Shown here: piece by piece, positions 2,587-21,197 of the stretch
Layout of the letters: each line of letters begins with the position of its first letter
Numbering within the stretch: position 1 is the first letter of the stretch
Source: Candidatus Saccharimonadota bacterium
Lineage (GTDB): Bacteria > Patescibacteriota > Saccharimonadia > Saccharimonadales > UBA4665
Length of the DNA: 61,979 bases
Reading direction: 5' to 3'
NCBI GenBank assembly: GCA_025928155.1
Contig: JAICKC010000008.1
Span: 1 to 61,979, forward strand
Made by a program: the position numbers and the translations under genes
The notes under the pieces: model-generated
Seen by the model: only the letters and a program-made list of their open reading frames with translations
Told to the model about the DNA's origin: nothing
Databases searched by the model: none

Positions 2587-4028
2587 GACTCTGAGGTGGT
2601 TTCGAACTTGGGGAAGAGTGTGGATTTTTGAGGGTGCACTAGCCCGTCCTTGAACATACGCTGGATTTTGGCGGCGGTGCCTGGCAGGAACGGCGCAAGC
2701 AGTTCAGCAATTTCGAGCAGATCCCCCACCTGCTGGGCCAACACTTCGCGCAAGTGGTCTTCGTCCTTGGTTTTGGCGATTTCCCACGGTTTTTCCTGGT
2801 CGATGTATTGGTTGAGGCCCCGCACCTGATCCCAAACGTGATCGAGCGCGCGGTCGAAACGACAAACCGCCAAGCTCTCATCGTACGGGCCGGTATCGTG
2901 CTCGGCTTCCGGCACGTCGCCCACCATACCCCCCTGGTATTTCAGAATCATGGCGACTGTGCGCTGCACGGCGTTGCCGAGTTCGTTGGCCAGCTCGTTG
3001 TTGTAGGCCGCCTCGAACTGCTCGGGGGTGTAATCGCCGTCATCATAGCTCGGAATGTGGCGCAGGAAATAATAGCGAAAAGCATCAGTGCCGTACTGTT
3101 CGATGATTTCAGCCGGAGCAATTACGTTGCCGAGCGACTTGCTCATTTTTACACCGCCGACGTTCACAAAACCGTGCACATAGAGCCGCTTGGGTGGAGC
3201 AATTCCAAGGCTCATCAGCATCGCCGGCCAAATGGCGGCGTGGAAGCGGCTGATGTCTTTGCCCACAATTTGTACGTCTGCTGGCCAGAATTTTTTGAAA
3301 TCGTCGTGCTCCGGGTAGCCCAGCACCGTTATGTAGTTCATGAGCGCCTCGAACCATACATACATCACCTGGGTCTTGTCGCCGGGCACCGGGATGCCCC
3401 AATCGAGTTTCTCGGCCGGACGGCTGATGCTGATATCGTTCACGCCATCTTTGAGGAGCGCCAGAATTTCGTTTTTACGCGTACCCGGCACGATGTGTAG
3501 CCCGTCGCTTTCGATAAGCGTAATGAGCTGCTCGTTGTATTTGCTGAGTGCAAAAAAGTAGTTTTCTTCCTCGAGCTTCTGGTAGGCCTGTGGATGGTCG
3601 GGCTTCATGCGCTCCGGGTCAGCCTGAGACTCGGGCACAAATTCTTCCTGGCGGACGTCGTACCAGCCGACGTATTTACCTTTGTAGATGTCATTTGCTA
3701 ACGCTTTCCAAATAAGCTGGGCGCGCTGCACATGGCCTTTATCGGTAGTGCGGATGAAGCGGTCGGGCTCGGCACCGATCAGATTACCTAGGGCACGGAA
3801 CTTGGCTGAAACTTCGTCGGCAAACTCTTTTGGTGTTTTGCCGAGCGATTCAGCCTTTTCGGCGACTTTGGTACCGTGCTCGTCGGTGCCGGTACAGTAA
3901 ATGACGCTATCGCCGCGGGCGCGAGCCGCACGGGCCAGCACATCGCCGTATAGCAGTTCCATGGCAAAGCCGATATGTGGCTCACCGTTGACATAGGGAA
4001 TAGAGGTTGTGACGTAATAGTTACTCAT
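2583..4028 (-). CDS. metG: Methionyl-tRNA synthetase
   Basis: Class Ia aminoacyl-tRNA synthetase charging tRNA-Met. 481 aa, at the short end of the family. The HIGH signature is HIGF (18-21) and the KMSKS loop is at 294-298 (GGVKMSKSLGN). The connective insertion (about 120-145, GWYDVRQEEF) lacks the Cys pairs of the zinc knuckle, so this is a zinc-less form, and there is no C-terminal EMAP/Trbp111 tRNA-binding domain. A -10 box TAAAAT lies 7 nt before ATG, suggesting a leaderless transcript. First gene of the metG-tatD operon. Confidence 0.97.
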   Translation of the reverse strand: MSNYYVTTSIPYVNGEPHIGFAMELLYGDVLARAARARGDSVIYCTGTDEHGTKVAEKAESLGKTPKEFADEVSAKFRALGNLIGAEPDRFIRTTDKGHVQRAQLIWKALANDIYKGKYVGWYDVRQEEFVPESQADPERMKPDHPQAYQKLEEENYFFALSKYNEQLITLIESDGLHIVPGTRKNEILALLKDGVNDISISRPAEKLDWGIPVPGDKTQVMYVWFEALMNYITVLGYPEHDDFKKFWPADVQIVGKDISRFHAAIWPAMLMSLGIAPPKRLYVHGFVNVGGVKMSKSLGNVIAPAEIIEQYGTDAFRYYFLRHIPSYDDGDYTPEQFEAAYNNELANELGNAVQRTVAMILKYQGGMVGDVPEAEHDTGPYDESLAVCRFDRALDHVWDQVRGLNQYIDQEKPWEIAKTKDEDHLREVLAQQVGDLLEIAELLAPFLPGTAAKIQRMFKDGLVHPQKSTLFPKFETTSES

Positions 4029-4188
4029 TGGTAGTATTTTACCTGTTTAGTCTGACAAAGAGAAAAGAGAAGATAAACGTTATGCCCGCGAGGGCATCAA
4101 GAACATGGCGCGGGTAGTTATACGTAAGCTGCGCTGCATGCTTTTATTATAACATACACTTATGGCGAGGTACCTTAACACCCGTCTG

Positions 4189-4719
4189 TCAAACTCCCAA
4201 CTTCTTGTGCATCGCCTGGGCTACAACATCGGCGTACATTTCCGCCCGTACTTCCGTCATTGGCAGCAGTTCTTGGACGTGTGCCGGGGTTTCGCCAGAC
4301 ATCATGAAGCTACCATCCGACCCTACACGGGCATCGATAGCACTATAACCCTCACCCGTAGCAAGCGTATCTAATTCGGACGACTCGTGAAAGTCCGGTT
4401 TGAATATAAAAGGTCCGACCAAAAGACGCTGGCCCGCATTATCCGCCGACGCCTGGATACTAACAATGCTCGCGTTACTCGCGTCATCCAGCTCAATCGT
4501 AACTTCGAAGGGGTAACGTTCATACTCAGACTTAAATCCCAACAGCATTGGATATACTACCCCCTCTTTCAGGATCCCTGGAATGTTGAATGCGACCGGA
4601 CCGGAATGCTGGCCCGGCGTGTGCAACACTGCGGCGAGTCCCTGAATATCGGCAGCTAGCTCAGTAGGAATAAAAACGTCCCTGGAGACACCTTGCTCAT
4701 GTAAACGGTCGTTACGCAT
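4189..4719 (-). CDS. Hypothetical protein, 176 aa
   Basis: Not recognised. It is a soluble acidic protein with no signal peptide, Cys or catalytic motif that stands out. It begins 7 nt after the stop of the HIT gene on the same strand, so the two are likely co-transcribed. The 160-nt gap to metG contains a small GC hairpin (TGCCC-N4-GGGCA near 4083-4096). No function inferred. Confidence 0.65.
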   Translation of the reverse strand: MRNDRLHEQGVSRDVFIPTELAADIQGLAAVLHTPGQHSGPVAFNIPGILKEGVVYPMLLGFKSEYERYPFEVTIELDDASNASIVSIQASADNAGQRLLVGPFIFKPDFHESSELDTLATGEGYSAIDARVGSDGSFMMSGETPAHVQELLPMTEVRAEMYADVVAQAMHKKLGV

Positions 4720-4726
4720 GCGATAG

Positions 4727-5146
4727 TTACTTTAGCAGCTTCTCGATCTCCTTGCGCTCTAAGTCATCGAGATCAACAAAGAGATCGGTCTCGTATTTTT
4801 CGGACATCTGAAAGAGGTAGTCCTCCCAGGAGCGTGGGTAGACGTGAAAGTGGGCGTGGTCGACCTTGAGCCGGCCCTGTTTCATAAATGGCCGGTAGTT
4901 CTGCTTGATGTCAACGCCATCTCCGAGCTTACCAATGATCCGCTGTTCTATAAAAAATATCAGCTCAAAAATGCCCTGCAGCTCCTCGGGCTGCAAATCC
5001 CACGGTTTTTCCACGTGGCGCTTGGGTATAACGAGAAAGTGTCCGGGTACTTTGCGAGGGTTGCTCAAAATGACTCTAGCTTGGTCGTTTTCTTTGAGCA
5101 CTCGATCTTTGGGGTGGCAGAACGGGCAGTTAGCTTCGGTAGGCAT
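4727..5146 (-). CDS. HIT-family nucleotide hydrolase/transferase
   Basis: Histidine-triad hydrolase of the Hint/Fhit group, acting on nucleoside-phosphate linkages (AMP-Lys, AMP-NH2 or ApnA type substrates in relatives). The triad is HAHFH (97-101) in the family position, preceded by a substrate-side segment (GHFLVIPKRHVEK, 35-47). The N-terminal CPFC (7-10) could hold half of a metal site as in Hint proteins. 139 aa, full length. -10 TATACT (5153-5158, minus) ends 6 nt before ATG, so the message is probably leaderless. Confidence 0.9.
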   Translation of the reverse strand: MPTEANCPFCHPKDRVLKENDQARVILSNPRKVPGHFLVIPKRHVEKPWDLQPEELQGIFELIFFIEQRIIGKLGDGVDIKQNYRPFMKQGRLKVDHAHFHVYPRSWEDYLFQMSEKYETDLFVDLDDLERKEIEKLLK

Positions 5147-5161
5147 AGATATAGTATACCG

Positions 5162-6781
5162 TTATTCGGCGCCGTATTCGTGGGCTTTTGCGCGTTTCGG
5201 CAACGCAGTACTAAGTAACAACGCCAGCGCTGAGGCAACGATAACACCCTCCATGCCACGCTTCACGCCCGCCACAAGAGCGTCATTTTTAATACGCAGA
5301 ATTTCTAATGCTATTGGCGCCGGCACGGTTCGGGGCACTGAGCTAGAAGTGCCCAAACTCTGTGCCGCGGCAGTTACCTGGCTGGCAACTTGCGGTTTAA
5401 CAGCTGGCGGCAGCACGTTGCTGGCGGCCACGTCATTTGTAAGCTGCGAGGTTAACGCGGAAATGATCAGCGCGCCAATCAGTGCCTGGCCCATGCTGGT
5501 GCCGATCTGCCGAAAGGTGTTGTTGACGCCAGACGCCTCGCCAGCCATTTCAACGCTCACGGCCGACAGCGTCAGATTAGCTAACTGCGCAATCACGAGC
5601 CCAAAGCCAAGCCCGAAGCAAACCATGCCCGGAATAAAAGTGACTGCTGTGGCATTCACCGAAACCTCAGTGCGCAGCAGTACGCCACCAATAACCGACA
5701 GTAGCAGCCCGAGCTGAATAAGGTAGCGCTGCGGCACATTGCGCCGCGCAGCCAGTACGCCCGCCAGCGGTGAAGCAATAAGTATCGCAATAGATAGCGG
5801 CAGCGTTGCGATGCCGCTATGGAAGGCATCCTTGCCGAGCAGCCCTTGCAGGAAAATCGGCAGCGTGAAGATCAGGCCGAACTGTCCCAGCACCGCCACC
5901 GCCAACACCGTGGTGCCAGCCGAGAAATCCCGGTTTTTGAGCAGACCGGTACTTACCAACGGCACCTTGCCCTTATCCTCGAGCATCGCCTGGCGCAGCA
6001 GGAATAGCGTTAAGAAAATCAGGCCAAACACAATCGCATAGGAGCTTGCTGACACGCCCATTAAGTGGAAGTGCTGGTTGAGTATCTCGTAGTTTTCTTT
6101 AGCCTTTACCCACCCGTAAGTGGATGATTCGATAATGCCGTACACTAGACCACCGAGACCACATGCCGAAAGAATGACGCTCAAAAGATCCGGTCTATGC
6201 GGGGTTCGCTCCTGCGCTTCCTTCACGATGGTTGATCCAACAAAGATCACCAGCACGACAATGGGGTTAATAAGATAGTTCCAGCGCCAACTGTAATTGG
6301 TCGTGAGCCAGCCGCCCAGAATCGGCCCAATGGTAGCCGCCGCTCCGGCAATAGCACCGTACACCCCAAATGCTACCGCCCGGTCTCTGCCTCGATAGGT
6401 GCTCACGAGTAGGCTGGCAGTGGCTGGCAGCATGAGCGCCGCGCCGCCACCTTCTATGAGCGACACGCTGAATAACAGGAACGAGTCGGAGTGCGCCTGG
6501 CTGGCCATGAGCGAACCGATGCCAAAAATAACGGCGCCCACCAAAAACATGCGCTTGCGCCCAAAGATATCGCCCAGCCGTCCACCGGTGATGGTAAATG
6601 CTGCCAATACAAGGCTGTAGCCGGTAATCACCCATTGGATGGCTTTGAGGTTACTATGCAGGTCATGAATAATAGCGCGGATACTGACATTGATTATTGT
6701 TGTGTCCAATACAACAATAAAGAGCGCGAGCGCTAAGACCATCAGCGGCGCCCATTTCCGAAATCCTCGTTCTTCAGCCAT
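5162..6781 (-). CDS. MFS drug/proton antiporter, DHA2 (EmrB/QacA) type
   Basis: 539 aa with about 14 predicted membrane helices, the layout of DHA2 multidrug efflux pumps. Motif D1-like LDTTIINVS is at about 25-33, motif A GGRLGDIFGRKR at about 65-76, and motif C GPILGGW at about 150-156. A large loop between helices 13 and 14 precedes a final helix, as is common in the family. Substrate cannot be read from sequence. It lies 15 nt downstream of the divergent end of the HIT promoter region and is not obviously in an operon with the Nudix gene upstream. Confidence 0.9.
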   Translation of the reverse strand: MAEERGFRKWAPLMVLALALFIVVLDTTIINVSIRAIIHDLHSNLKAIQWVITGYSLVLAAFTITGGRLGDIFGRKRMFLVGAVIFGIGSLMASQAHSDSFLLFSVSLIEGGGAALMLPATASLLVSTYRGRDRAVAFGVYGAIAGAAATIGPILGGWLTTNYSWRWNYLINPIVVLVIFVGSTIVKEAQERTPHRPDLLSVILSACGLGGLVYGIIESSTYGWVKAKENYEILNQHFHLMGVSASSYAIVFGLIFLTLFLLRQAMLEDKGKVPLVSTGLLKNRDFSAGTTVLAVAVLGQFGLIFTLPIFLQGLLGKDAFHSGIATLPLSIAILIASPLAGVLAARRNVPQRYLIQLGLLLSVIGGVLLRTEVSVNATAVTFIPGMVCFGLGFGLVIAQLANLTLSAVSVEMAGEASGVNNTFRQIGTSMGQALIGALIISALTSQLTNDVAASNVLPPAVKPQVASQVTAAAQSLGTSSSVPRTVPAPIALEILRIKNDALVAGVKRGMEGVIVASALALLLSTALPKRAKAHEYGAE

Positions 6782-17210: not shown

Positions 17211-17540
17211 ATGCTCGACCATAGGCTAACCTCAGACTTACTACGCGGACACACGGATACAATCATCCTGAAATTCCTGTGTGACGGCGATAAATACGGC
17301 TACGAAGTCACAAAGCTCGTTTATGAACTGTCTGATCACGAGTACGAACTAAAAGAGGCGACTATGTACTCAAGTTTGAAGCGCCTGGAGCACGACGGCC
17401 ACATTACTTCGTACTGGGGCGACGAAACGCAGGGCGGCCGGCGCAAATATTATCGAATTGCACCAAGCGGCCGGGAACAATACGCGGTCAACAAGCGCAA
17501 TTACACGTACGCGAAAGCAATTTTAGAAAAGTTACTATAA
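17211..17540 (+). CDS. PadR-family transcriptional regulator
   Basis: 109-aa PadR winged helix: LRGHTDTIILKFLCDGDKYG, LKEATMYSSLKRLEHDGHI and GRRKYYRIAPSGREQY. It belongs to a different PadR subgroup from the two paralogous ones in this window. It is followed after 12 nt (AAGGAG site) by a HAAS/pentapeptide-repeat gene, the usual PadR-HAAS pairing seen in Gram-positive stress operons. Confidence 0.92.
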   Translation: MLDHRLTSDLLRGHTDTIILKFLCDGDKYGYEVTKLVYELSDHEYELKEATMYSSLKRLEHDGHITSYWGDETQGGRRKYYRIAPSGREQYAVNKRNYTYAKAILEKLL

Positions 17541-17552
17541 AGGAGAAGCACT

Positions 17553-18383
17553 ATGAACAACAAACTACAGCAATTCCTTATGGATGCATTTAAGCCGTAC
17601 GGCGACTTCCCTGCCCGAAAAGATGTAGAGCAGGAGCTGCTCGCCAACCTGACCGAAAGATATAACGACCTCAAGCGCGAGGGCAAAAGCGACGACGAAG
17701 CCTACCAAATGACAACCGATTCGTTTGGTGACGTGTCGGAGCTTATGGCTGAAGTGCAGCACGCCCCTCAGAAAAGGGCCGAGCAAGAACCTTCTCTGCC
17801 CAAAACTCTCAAGGAAGCATTTAAGCTGGCGAAGCAGAGCCATTCAAAGTTCTCGTCTACAGAGCTAAAGCAGTCTGATCTGAGTGGTACAAACCTGGCC
17901 GAGGCGGATTTTAGCTTTACTTCTCTTGCGGGCTCCAACTTTGATGGTTCCGAGCTTGCAGGAGCACGTTTTAGAGCCTCAGAACTCAGGGGCGCCAGCT
18001 TCAAGGGAGCAAACCTAACCAGTGCCAGCTTTGCGGGCAGCGACATGCAGGACGCAAGCTTTGATAACGCCAACCTCACGAACACGCATTTCAGAGCATC
18101 GACCCTCAAAGGCGTCTCGTTTAAAGACGCAGTGCTGGATGGCGCCAACTTTAGCCACTCTGACTTACGTGATGTTGCGTTTGATAACTTAACGCTCAAC
18201 GGCGCTAGTTTTGATGGTACATCACTTAAAAACACCTCCTTCAAGAATGCTGTTTTGAACGATGTCTCATTCCACCACTCTGACGCGAGACACACGGTGT
18301 TCGACGGTGCGACGATGGATAAACTTACCTACGCCCTTTTGAAAGGCGCAAAAGCCAATTTGGACAACGTAACCGTGCAGTAG
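17553..18383 (+). CDS. HAAS-like domain plus pentapeptide-repeat protein
   Basis: 276 aa. Residues 1-75 form a HAAS/permease-prefix-like helical domain (FPARKDVEQELLANLTERY ... YQMTTDSFGDVSELM), the kind that normally precedes membrane domains in PadR operons. From about 105 to 270 there are about 30 pentapeptide repeats of the A(D/N)(L/F)xx type (for example SGTNLAEADFSFTSLAGSNF), predicting a right-handed quadrilateral beta-helix. The fusion of a PadR-operon sensor domain to a pentapeptide solenoid is uncommon to my knowledge. Some solenoids mimic DNA and bind gyrase; no evidence for that here. Confidence 0.88.
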   Translation: MNNKLQQFLMDAFKPYGDFPARKDVEQELLANLTERYNDLKREGKSDDEAYQMTTDSFGDVSELMAEVQHAPQKRAEQEPSLPKTLKEAFKLAKQSHSKFSSTELKQSDLSGTNLAEADFSFTSLAGSNFDGSELAGARFRASELRGASFKGANLTSASFAGSDMQDASFDNANLTNTHFRASTLKGVSFKDAVLDGANFSHSDLRDVAFDNLTLNGASFDGTSLKNTSFKNAVLNDVSFHHSDARHTVFDGATMDKLTYALLKGAKANLDNVTVQ

Positions 18384-18517: not shown

Positions 18518-19327
18518 TTGCCCGACACACAGGTAGAGGAACCAGCAAAGACACGACCCACCTTCGACGTGGACGCGGTGGCCGCAGTGCTTACCGCCAA
18601 CGCCGAAGGACGACTTCGCGGTGGGTACGATAAGCGCCTAAACATGCTCAGGCGCACGATCGCCGAAAACGAAGTCATGCTTCGGTCCTACGCGGAGCGA
18701 ATCCGAGAGGTCAACCGAGACCTGGGAGAACGGCGCGCCGAACTTCACAAGCTCGAGTCCACTCCGCCCGCGCCAGCCGACGCCGAGACGATCGCACGCG
18801 ACATCCGTCGCATGCGCAACTACCCCGGCGTGCTTGGCCTGTGGGTGGACGAACGCGGCCGCATCGTGGCCCATGTGCACACCAACGTGATCTACAAGAA
18901 CCGCCGATACCACATGGGCGACTTCGAGGTGATTCTGGGAGAACCACGCGAATACCACCCACTCGATATCCGATGCACGCGAACCGGACAGCTGCCCATA
19001 GGAGGACAGTGCCCCTGCCTGGATGAGTACTGCGACCGGAAGGCTGGCTACACCCGGCACTTCTACTGGACCCCACGTAGCCACGCCAACGGCGGGCTGG
19101 GCAGCGGCTCGTTCTGCTTCGGCACTCGTGCTCGCGAGCTCGAAAGCCTGCGGGACCAGGGGCGCTACGCCGAACTGCTTCACCTCGTCCTCGCGACGAT
19201 GTGCAGCGTCAACCCTGGCCACGAAGACGGGCTGTCCGCGACGTACCAGAGCGTACGAGTCGGAGGGAGGCGAAGGCTGCGACTCCGCAAGAGGGGCGTC
19301 GCCATAGTAGGCGAGTTCAACGACTAG
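18518..19327 (+). CDS. Ubiquitin-conjugating (E2/UBC-fold) protein with N-terminal coiled coil
   Basis: 269 aa from TTG. Residues about 38-85 are a charged coiled coil. Residues about 100-240 fit a bacterial UBC fold: beta strands (GLWVDERGRIVAHV; YHMGDFEVILGEPREYHP, like the G-x-F-x-V strand of E2s), a CPCLDEYC insertion (165-172) that may bind zinc, then WTPRSHANGGLGSGSFCFGT where H189 and C200 match the spacing of the HPN His and catalytic Cys of eukaryotic E2s, and a helix ending in VNPGHEDG. It leads the E2-JAMM-E1 operon. GC-rich with G/C-ending codons. Basic tail (RRRLRLRKR) could bind nucleic acid or substrate. Family placement is by pattern, not by search. Confidence 0.82.
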   Translation: MPDTQVEEPAKTRPTFDVDAVAAVLTANAEGRLRGGYDKRLNMLRRTIAENEVMLRSYAERIREVNRDLGERRAELHKLESTPPAPADAETIARDIRRMRNYPGVLGLWVDERGRIVAHVHTNVIYKNRRYHMGDFEVILGEPREYHPLDIRCTRTGQLPIGGQCPCLDEYCDRKAGYTRHFYWTPRSHANGGLGSGSFCFGTRARELESLRDQGRYAELLHLVLATMCSVNPGHEDGLSATYQSVRVGGRRRLRLRKRGVAIVGEFND

Positions 19328-19342
19328 AGAAAGGAACATTCC

Positions 19343-19951
19343 GTGGCACCAGCAACGGAAACCGCACGGACGCCGGCGCTACTTATCGCCAGGTCGGCGT
19401 GGGACAAGATCATGGGGTACACCACCCAGTGTCCGATCGAAGTCAACGGCTTCGGATACCTCAAGGTGGTCGACCAGTACACGCTCCTGCTCGGCAGTGC
19501 CGACGATGTTTTCATCACCCCGCAGGTGGCGAGCATCGCCTCGGCGGACGTCGATGGCACGGCTGTCGCACTCGCTTTCGACCAGGCTTTCCGGGCCGGA
19601 CGCGGGCAACAGTTGCGCTTGCAGTGGCACAGCCACGTGGATCTGGCAGCATACCACAGCGGCACCGACATGCGAACCATCGACAGCTACGCCAGTGGCG
19701 GAGCAACGTGGATGGTATCCATGGTTGTCAACAGGCGCGGCGAGCGCGTGGCCCGGCTCGACATCTACAACCCCTTCCGGACAGGATACCTAATACCCGT
19801 CCGGGAATACGTGGAACTTGACGAAGAACTCCTCGCGGCCTGCCGCGGCGAGCTCCTGACCAACGTTCGACATGAGGTGCCGGTCGGCAAACCGCGCGGC
19901 GGCGCCCAACGCACCCGCATAGTGCCGCTGGCACTCGAGACTGTGAGGTGA
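19343..19951 (+). CDS. JAMM/Mov34 (JAB) deubiquitinase-like metalloprotease
   Basis: 202 aa, GTG start with AAAGGA upstream. The zinc-protease signature is intact: E33 (PIEVNGFGYL), H96-S97-H98, then S106 and D109 (HSHVDLAAYHSGTD, i.e. HxH-x7-S-x2-D). Expected to cleave isopeptide bonds after the glycine of the modifier. Because the Ubl already ends in Gly, maturation should not be needed and the role is more likely deconjugation. 15 nt after the E2 stop and 4 nt before the E1 start, so co-expressed with both. Confidence 0.9.
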   Translation: MAPATETARTPALLIARSAWDKIMGYTTQCPIEVNGFGYLKVVDQYTLLLGSADDVFITPQVASIASADVDGTAVALAFDQAFRAGRGQQLRLQWHSHVDLAAYHSGTDMRTIDSYASGGATWMVSMVVNRRGERVARLDIYNPFRTGYLIPVREYVELDEELLAACRGELLTNVRHEVPVGKPRGGAQRTRIVPLALETVR

Positions 19952-19955
19952 AGCC

Positions 19956-20630
19956 GTGAGCTTCAGAGCAGACTACAGCAATCAGACCGGATTCTTCAAT
20001 CCGGCTACCTTCGGACACGAGGTCACGCTCATCGGCTGTGGTGGCATCGGCGCGTCCGCGCTGCCGATCCTCGCCACCCTGGGCATCCCGAAGATCACCA
20101 TCTGGGACCCCGACATGGTCGAGCCGCGGAACATCGCGTCAACGATCCTTTTCGGTCCCGACGATGTCGGACATGCCAAGGTTGAGGTCGCCAAGCGTGA
20201 GCTCATCCGCCTCGGCGTGGAAGACGTCACCATCTACGAAGAGCTGTTCGACCCCGGCAAGCACGGCAACGCGCTGAGTGGGATCGTCATCTCGGCAGTA
20301 GACAGTATGGCCGCTCGGAAGGAGATCTGGGAGGCTGTCGCCTGGAACGGGCCGGTGCCCCTCTACTTGGACGGGCGTATCGGTGGCGAGCAATTCCAGC
20401 TCAACATCGTGAACCCAACCGACCCGGACGACGTCACGTGGTACGCAGAGCACCAGCTGTTTGACGATGCCAGCGCAGCGCCCCTGCCCTGTGCAGAGCG
20501 CAACGTGGTCTACCCGTCCGCGGCCCTCGGCAGCGTCATGGCCAGCCGGCTAGCCCTCTTCTCGAGAGGCAAGCCGACCGGCAGGATGATCTTCCTCCAC
20601 ATGGGGACCCTCCAAGTGCTGCAATACTAG
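19956..20630 (+). CDS. E1-like (ThiF/MoeB-fold) Ubl-activating enzyme
   Basis: 224 aa, GTG start. Rossmann loop IGCGGIG (26-32), ATP-site D51 (WDPD) and R58-N59 (EPRNI), K75 (GHAKVEVAK) and D116 (SAVDSMAAR) are all in ThiF-family positions; PLPCAERNVVYPS gives candidate thioester Cys179. There are no CxxC zinc pairs and no fused E2 domain, unlike CBASS Cap2. It would adenylate the C-terminal Gly of the Ubl, load it on Cys179 and pass it to the E2. Start overlaps the JAMM stop region (4 nt gap) with GAGGTGA as ribosome site. Confidence 0.92.
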   Translation: MSFRADYSNQTGFFNPATFGHEVTLIGCGGIGASALPILATLGIPKITIWDPDMVEPRNIASTILFGPDDVGHAKVEVAKRELIRLGVEDVTIYEELFDPGKHGNALSGIVISAVDSMAARKEIWEAVAWNGPVPLYLDGRIGGEQFQLNIVNPTDPDDVTWYAEHQLFDDASAAPLPCAERNVVYPSAALGSVMASRLALFSRGKPTGRMIFLHMGTLQVLQY

Positions 20631-20650
20631 CAGCCGGGTTCCCTACGAAC

Positions 20651-20755
20651 TGAGTTGTGCAAGCGGATGGGTGCTGGCGTGAGAGTAGGAATAGTTCCGT
20701 ACGGGACTTTTCATCAACTACTAACACACCACCCCATCCGCAACAACTCATTTTT
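20651..20755 (+). terminator. Long hairpin plus T-run between E1 and Ubl
   Basis: TGAGTTGT (20651-20658) pairs with ACAACTCA (20743-20750), and GCGGATGGG (20663-20671) with CCCATCCGC (20733-20741), enclosing a further foldable 60-nt arm with a near-palindromic tip around AGTTCCGTACGGGACT. TTTTT follows. It should end the E2-JAMM-E1 transcript; the unusual size leaves open a second RNA role. Confidence 0.7.
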
Positions 20756-20776
20756 ATAACTTTTCCTGAAATAGAA

Positions 20777-20804
20777 TTGACATAATTGTTTTATCTAGTA
20801 TAAT
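20777..20804 (+). promoter_or_regulatory. Consensus promoter of the Ubl gene
   Basis: TTGACA (20777-20782) and TATAAT (20799-20804), both perfect sigma70-type hexamers, 16-nt spacer. The transcript would start near 20811 and carry a roughly 87-nt leader with a CTGGA-N5-TCCAG hairpin. Confidence 0.88.
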
Positions 20805-20897
20805 ATTTCACGTTCTGGAAGACATCCAGTGACACAGCCGAAAGTTTCGGCCCATTCTCGCCGCGGAAGCGACAGAATGAAGATGGAGGAGTCAGCA

Positions 20898-21197
20898 ATG
20901 ATCGCCACCGACCAGCAGGACCAGCAGCTCGACACCACCAGCCCCGCGTACGACCCGGGTGCCATCGTCACGGTGAGCATCATGGGATCGGACGGCCTCG
21001 AGGTCACGATCACCAACGAGAACGGCCAGCCGTTCACGGCGGAGACCGTCCTCATCAAGGCCGCTGCCGCCCTCGGCCTGACGGGCTTCAAGACCAGCAG
21101 CGTCGGCGTCGTCAGGAACGGCCAGCCCGCGCAGCTCGACACCCCGGTGCAGCCCGGCGACCTCGTCTCGGCCGCCCCGCGCGTGTCCAACGGCTGA
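20898..21197 (+). CDS. Ubiquitin-like (beta-grasp, ThiS/MoaD-like) modifier
   Basis: 99 aa from ATG 20898, chosen because GGAGGA (20885-20890) precedes it by 7 nt; an in-frame GTG at 20829 lacks a ribosome site. A disordered Gln/Asp/Thr-rich tail (1-20) precedes a beta-grasp-like domain: VTVSIMGSDGLEVTITNENG (24-43), helix TAETVLIKAAAALGL, and the end QPGDLVSAAPRVSNG. The GD-x-V-x-(A/P) then xxxG ending matches ThiS/MoaD/Ubl C-termini, with a single terminal Gly instead of GG. Own promoter and terminator. Codons end almost always in G or C. Presumed substrate of the adjacent E1, E2 and JAMM proteins. Confidence 0.85.
   Translation: MIATDQQDQQLDTTSPAYDPGAIVTVSIMGSDGLEVTITNENGQPFTAETVLIKAAAALGLTGFKTSSVGVVRNGQPAQLDTPVQPGDLVSAAPRVSNG

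Follow-up and report, generated by a model that had tools for sequence, protein, structure and literature searches.

A predicted ubiquitin-like conjugation system with Asn-Gly modifier tails in a group of Patescibacteria

Introduction

Can a bacterium with a genome of only 1.30 Mb encode a complete ubiquitin-like (Ubl) conjugation pathway, and does such a pathway belong to a bacterial type that is already known? The question is raised by four neighboring genes in a 61,979-nucleotide stretch of DNA (hereafter the window), which constitutes contig C20 of a 98% complete genome. An initial annotation, made from the sequence alone, read these genes as the E2, JAMM, E1 and Ubl components of one pathway in a Patescibacteria-like genome. 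Its taxonomic inference proves correct, and the order to which the source genome belongs includes genomes named Candidatus Saccharibacteria. Among bacterial operons of the E1-E2-JAB-Ubl kind, the Bil type has been shown to act. The existence of such operons was predicted in 2006 (PMC1779556).

Results

Organization of the locus

All four genes are intact open reading frames (ORFs) on the plus strand at 18518-21197, where they had originally been placed, and their coordinates confirm that the parts are separate genes in the order E2-JAMM-E1-Ubl:

18518..19327, plus strand: E2-like (UBC-fold) protein, 269 aa, with a TTG start after AAGGAGGTGATCC
19343..19951, plus strand: JAMM/JAB metallopeptidase, 202 aa, with E33, H96-S97-H98, S106 and D109; assigned by family profile
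19956..20630, plus strand: minimal single-domain E1 (ThiF/MoeB fold), 224 aa; assigned by Pfam ThiF, family profile and invariant residues
20777..20804, plus strand: sigma-70-type promoter match, TTGACA-16-TATAAT, 12 of 12 consensus positions, upstream of the Ubl gene
20898..21197, plus strand: ubiquitin-like modifier, 99 aa, a single beta-grasp with a bare C-terminal Ser-Asn-Gly; assigned by profile and model

The E2 and JAB genes are separated by 15 bases, JAB and E1 by 4 bases, and E1 and Ubl by 267 bases. The last of these intervals contains the full promoter match, so the separate promoter proposed for the modifier is supported as a prediction, and the best-spaced ribosome-binding site (GGAGG) lies 5′ of the ATG at 20898, yielding the 99-residue product.

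The block is 62% G+C as opposed to 53% for the whole window (z 3.5), which places it among the most G+C-rich segments of the window, and third-position G+C across the four genes reaches 75-97%. It is flanked by a PadR/pentapeptide pair on one side and by a reductase-like gene. Neither of the genus's two other genomes conserves these flanking genes. We infer that the G+C-rich block and its flanks fit a recent acquisition of the operon. The pair immediately 5′ of the operon (17211-18383) consists of a PadR-type regulator beside a protein with a pentapeptide-repeat region.

Catalytic residues of the E1 and JAB proteins

Homology supports each of the four pathway roles, that of the E2 more weakly, and in library scans (Pfam, NCBIfam, PADLOC and PHROGs) the E1 alone is identified by name. 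The profile search that had been suggested as a check therefore succeeds only in part: Pfam recognizes ThiF in the E1 (1.6e-19), gives a Prok-JAB match to the JAB protein that is below threshold (0.002), and has no match for the window's E2 or Ubl.

The ATP site of the E1 comprises G27-G32, D51, D53, N59, K75 and D116, with C179 as the candidate catalytic cysteine. G27, G29, D51, D53, N59, K75, D116, R121, R141 and C179 are invariant among 33 diverse members, a set that takes in the glycine motif, K75, D116 and C179 singled out by the initial annotation. Against the PDB, the E1 family profile matches UBA3 (1.6e-18) and BubCD (1.4e-9). In distant members the cysteine resides within a PCTAR-like motif similar to C-T-[IL]-[RK], the catalytic cysteine motif of eukaryotic E1s. 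The JAMM signature HxH-x7-S-x2-D with E33 is equally well preserved, as E33, H96, S97, H98, S106 and D109 make up the invariant set of 31 JAB sequences; among solved structures, the JAB family profile matches Rpn11 (1.1e-9) and, weakly, BilC. Such invariance of the E1 and JAB catalytic residues is not a matter of chance.

A second Ubl system within one genome (G255, locus L029:4720-8576, minus strand) displays a different architecture. Its 432-aa E1 is a tandem of nearly identical ThiF domains; a few residues of the D51-E56 region are deleted from each, and the catalytic cysteine is missing from the first. Its 207-aa Ubl contains a repeat rich in Ala and Glu and has an NG end.

The E2-like protein

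The E2-like protein is predicted to contain a coiled-coil helix (aa 18-81) followed by a UBC-like domain (about aa 88-250), in which C200, within the sequence GSFCFG, is the candidate catalytic cysteine. C200 is the sole invariant residue of 39 family E2s, but H189, with which it had been paired, is not conserved. Likewise, the N-terminal coiled coil stands, whereas the Cys-rich insertion, though real, is confined to the window's E2.

When the E2 profile is compared with the PDB, the best nine distinct sequences are UBE2L3 or designs on UBE2L3 (E 0.016-0.07), and in the alignment the bacterial HPH and cysteine fall on the HPN and catalytic cysteine of E2s. The AlphaFold model consists of a 64-residue helix, then a helix, four strands and three helices, and its pLDDT exceeds 90 except in the active-site loop (aa 164-196), where it is below 50. 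Nearly all Foldseek matches to this model are E2, UEV or RWD domains, at E values of 0.09 or worse, and VIA-align gives middling Z scores (5-6.5) to the same superfamily. The structural check thus returned a UBC/RWD-like fold with weak matches, and the E2 identity rests on the sequence profile and the predicted model combined, each of which is weak alone.

A simple hydropathy count, which gives no topology, finds one to four membrane segments in the N-terminal extension of 18 of 27 E2s from the group of Patescibacteria whose modifiers end in NG (see below), and no clear segments in the relatives examined whose modifiers end in GG. The E2 of the window has none, nor do those of its closest kin (L021 and L026).

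Elsewhere in the family, L021 and L026 have the gene order E2-Ubl-JAB-E1, and the N-terminal region of their E2s is long and soluble. The E2s of four KSB1/Calditrichota-type loci (L070, L071, L073 and L075) bear a Cys/His-rich C-terminal tail with the look of a zinc-binding domain, and in L071 a ParB-like gene follows.

The ubiquitin-like modifier

The 99-residue protein had been described as a beta-grasp protein with a bare -SNG terminus. Its sequence bears this out, as do a family profile that matches PF1061 (6.7e-13) and Pyrococcus furiosus SAMP2 (1.2e-12) among solved structures and an AlphaFold model in which the predicted beta-grasp is obtained at a mean pLDDT of 78. Distant Ubls of the family match Pfam ThiS at up to 1.5e-6 and have -GG ends.

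A patchily distributed family

Among 393 sampled genomes of the order, 16 others contain a strong E1 relative (33-50% identity). In the neighborhood survey that had been proposed, E2 and Ubl genes adjoin the E1 in all 16, and JAB does so in 14; in a separate count, JAB is present in 16 of the 393 genomes. The E1 is found in six of 380 genomes of the phylum, and the system in one of three genomes of the genus. A plasmid search with the JAB protein gave no match.

When GTDB contigs were scanned, the window's E1 as a single query found nothing; an E1 alignment as query recovered 39 related loci, from Saccharibacteria, other Patescibacteria, Methylomirabilota, Rubrobacter, Chloroflexota, Myxococcota, KSB1/Calditrichota and others. 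The viral contig scan gave 80 (of 85) related loci. All four genes occur in most of the bacterial loci and in part of the viral ones, the remainder being mainly E1 plus JAB. In two crAss-like phage loci (L158 and L159, about 3600-5650), an E1 annotated as a thiamine biosynthesis protein lies beside a JAB gene with an intact HSH...S..D site, and no E2 could be identified with confidence in these phages, nor is there a clear Ubl partner. The window's system is a member of a patchily spread family, with the NG-ended Ubl as its hallmark, two points that the initial annotation had missed.

An Asn-Gly tail accompanied by loss of HPH

In the Patescibacteria group that includes the window, every Ubl has either a plain NG end or an NG followed by one or two further residues (NGR, NGQ, NGQI, NGC, NGG); the E2s show FCFG, or a motif close to it, and have no HPH. 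Outside this group, the Ubl ends in GG, with or without one or more additional residues after it, and the E2s of these relatives carry HPH...C[LW]G. The association is complete among the systems compared, with 29 combining NG with absence of HPH, 16 combining GG with its presence, and no mixed case. A tree built from 56 E1 rows places the two states on opposite sides of one branch (98/89). Because a single branch separates them, the tail change and the loss of HPH are one event, with a possible exception, rather than repeated co-variation, and for the same reason a p-value for the association is not evidence for repeated co-evolution.

Five Patescibacteria loci fetched later have no plain NG tail, their tails being KGN, KGNG-fused or unclear, and they do not cleanly confirm the pattern. 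In one of them (L173), the E2 has HPH and the Ubl has two domains, with KPNG in the second; two others (L174 and L176) have APH motifs together with KGN and KGNG tails. The L173 Ubl (3385-3996) consists of two beta-grasp-like units and a tail with a Cys pair, and in L176 (3642-4691) the Ubl occupies the start of a 349-aa ORF.

Tail extensions occur in none of six systems lacking JAB and in 14 of 35 systems with it. The bare tails of all six JAB-less systems fit a maturation role for the JAMM protein, but the difference is a trend only (Fisher p 0.079), and the notion that JAB-less systems never need Ubl maturation was rejected on this ground.

Discussion

Relationship to known systems

The locus meets the general definition of an E1-E2-JAB-Ubl system, possessing an E1 site, a UBC-fold E2 cysteine, a JAMM site and a beta-grasp protein with a C-terminal Gly, while conjugation to targets is inferred. 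The closest solved homologue of the modifier is archaeal PF1061/SAMP2, and SAMP2 is acted upon by a JAMM protein, JAMM1. These archaeal proteins have a GG end and no known E2 partner.

The system is not Bil, CBASS or type 6d of Iyer et al. (2006). Bil similarly dedicates separate Ubl, E2, JAMM and E1 genes to the pathway; however, BilA has two Ubl domains (PMC11354881), unlike the 99-aa single beta-grasp of the window, and PADLOC finds no match to BilA, BilB or BilC and only a generic, weak BilD match of the E1 (1.2e-8) that ranks below E1-E2 models. The Bub system also contains bacterial E1, JAMM and Ubl machinery to which the E1 profile is related, but BubCD in the PDB is a single chain of 458 residues, in contrast to the separate E1 and JAB proteins here. 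Type II CBASS and 6A-MBL systems share E1 and JAB homology with the locus and have an E1-E2 fusion; in the window, E1 and E2 are separate ORFs and there is no nucleotidyltransferase. Type 6d systems share with the locus separate Ubl, JAB, E1 and E2 genes in a cluster and a patchy spread, yet their JAB has a JAB-N domain, their E2 a conserved His after the Cys, and the cluster an additional protein of alpha-helical type (PMC1779556), all of which are missing here. The metal-site Glu of the JAB protein is residue 33, which leaves no room for an additional domain, and the conserved His can be ruled out since only C200 is invariant in the E2 family. The NG tail is a further difference from type 6d.

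The nearest functional parallel is the eukaryotic UFM1 pathway (UBA5, UFC1, UFM1), which also combines a minimal E1, an E2 without HPN and a modifier with a single terminal Gly not preceded by a second one. Although UFC1 carries TAK where other E2s have HPN, it is able to transfer UFM1; the penultimate Val of UFM1 protects it from deubiquitinases (PMC9627666, PMC10952357). The UFM1 pathway differs in employing cysteine proteases rather than a JAMM protein, and in TAK as opposed to [YH]P-x-Y-type residues. This likeness is a functional comparison, and no specific sequence kinship has been demonstrated.

The initial annotation knew of no Saccharibacteria-type example in this form, and we found no report of such a system in CPR bacteria in the open-access literature, although one elsewhere is not excluded. 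This is apparently a family of bacterial Ubl systems undescribed so far. New here, within one group of Patescibacteria, are the -NG Ubl tails, the HPH-less E2s and the predicted membrane segments in two thirds of these E2s.

A proposed pathway and its alternatives

The gene set, the homologies, the invariant catalytic residues, the folds at the level of models and the tail and motif change are observed; it is likely, in our judgment, that the four genes form one protein-conjugation pathway of the NG-tailed, HPH-less group of Patescibacteria, probably with an accessory defence or stress role. The E1 would adenylate the C-terminal Gly99 of the Ubl and carry it as a thioester on C179, from which it would pass to C200 of the coiled-coil E2 and be joined to an amine of a target, probably a lysine. 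The JAMM protein would remove the Ubl from targets and, in relatives with extra tail residues (NGR, NGQ, NGQI, NGC), may also mature it. Within the Patescibacteria group, Asn-Gly has replaced Gly-Gly at the modifier tail and HPH has disappeared from the E2, much as UFM1 ends in Val-Gly and UFC1 lacks HPN; most E2s of this group are predicted to be seated in the membrane, the window's being a soluble form. The thioester relay, the target chemistry, the specificity of the JAMM protein and the biological role are all inferred, and no E3 gene and no target is known for the pathway.

The Ubl might instead be a sulfur carrier like ThiS, MoaD or TtuB, adenylated by the E1 and loaded with sulfur as a thiocarboxylate, with JAB regenerating it and the E2-like protein acting as a scaffold. 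Its profile is indeed nearest to ThiS/MoaD/SAMP2 proteins, some of which serve both purposes. Nevertheless, ThiG and MoaE are absent from the 98% complete genome in searches whose controls worked, making a known sulfur-carrier role unlikely; moreover, the E1, at 224 aa, lacks a rhodanese domain, and an E2 gene with an invariant cysteine always adjoins the Ubl system. We regard this reading as improbable. It is also unlikely that the E2-like protein is dead or an RWD-like adaptor, with the Ubl attached by the E1 alone or binding the membrane-anchored protein non-covalently. Without HPH the E2 might be inactive, and RWD and UEV domains figure among the structural matches, but C200 is kept in all 39 E2s, on either side of the HPH loss, and UFC1 functions without HPN (PMC9627666).

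Conceivably, the genes could be a phage-type or counter-defence module that is carried as cargo and has no host function, as many viral contigs contain related sets of E1 and JAB, frequently accompanied by E2 and Ubl, and E1-JAB pairs occur in crAss-like phages. Among the ORFs examined near the window's operon, no phage genes were recognized, however, and the -NG group of the tree contains bacterial contigs only, which leaves little to recommend this explanation. In the absence of biochemistry, a working conjugation pathway convergent with that of UFM1 remains the most likely interpretation. Tagging for a proteasome is an unlikely purpose of this pathway, given that the genome contains no proteasome/HslV-type subunit. 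The genes are patchy and compositionally foreign, which makes an accessory role in defence or stress probable and suggests a mobile trait of that nature; defence is proposed by analogy only, without direct evidence and without a demonstrated defence gene neighbor.

Implications

It is possible, although we advance the idea only tentatively, that Patescibacteria evolved their own Ubl branch, with an NG modifier and an HPH/HPN-free, usually membrane-fixed E2, as a counterpart of UFM1 by convergence, possibly at the cell-surface machinery of these epibionts. The locus indicates that a full modifier pathway is retained or gained by minimal-genome bacteria devoid of most biosynthesis; library models cover only its ThiF component. 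It also presents a natural exchange of Gly-Gly for Asn-Gly at a modifier's reactive terminus, accompanied by the disappearance of the catalytic motif from the E2. The NG system thereby offers a tractable test of what E1, E2 and JAMM proteins require from the tail of a modifier.
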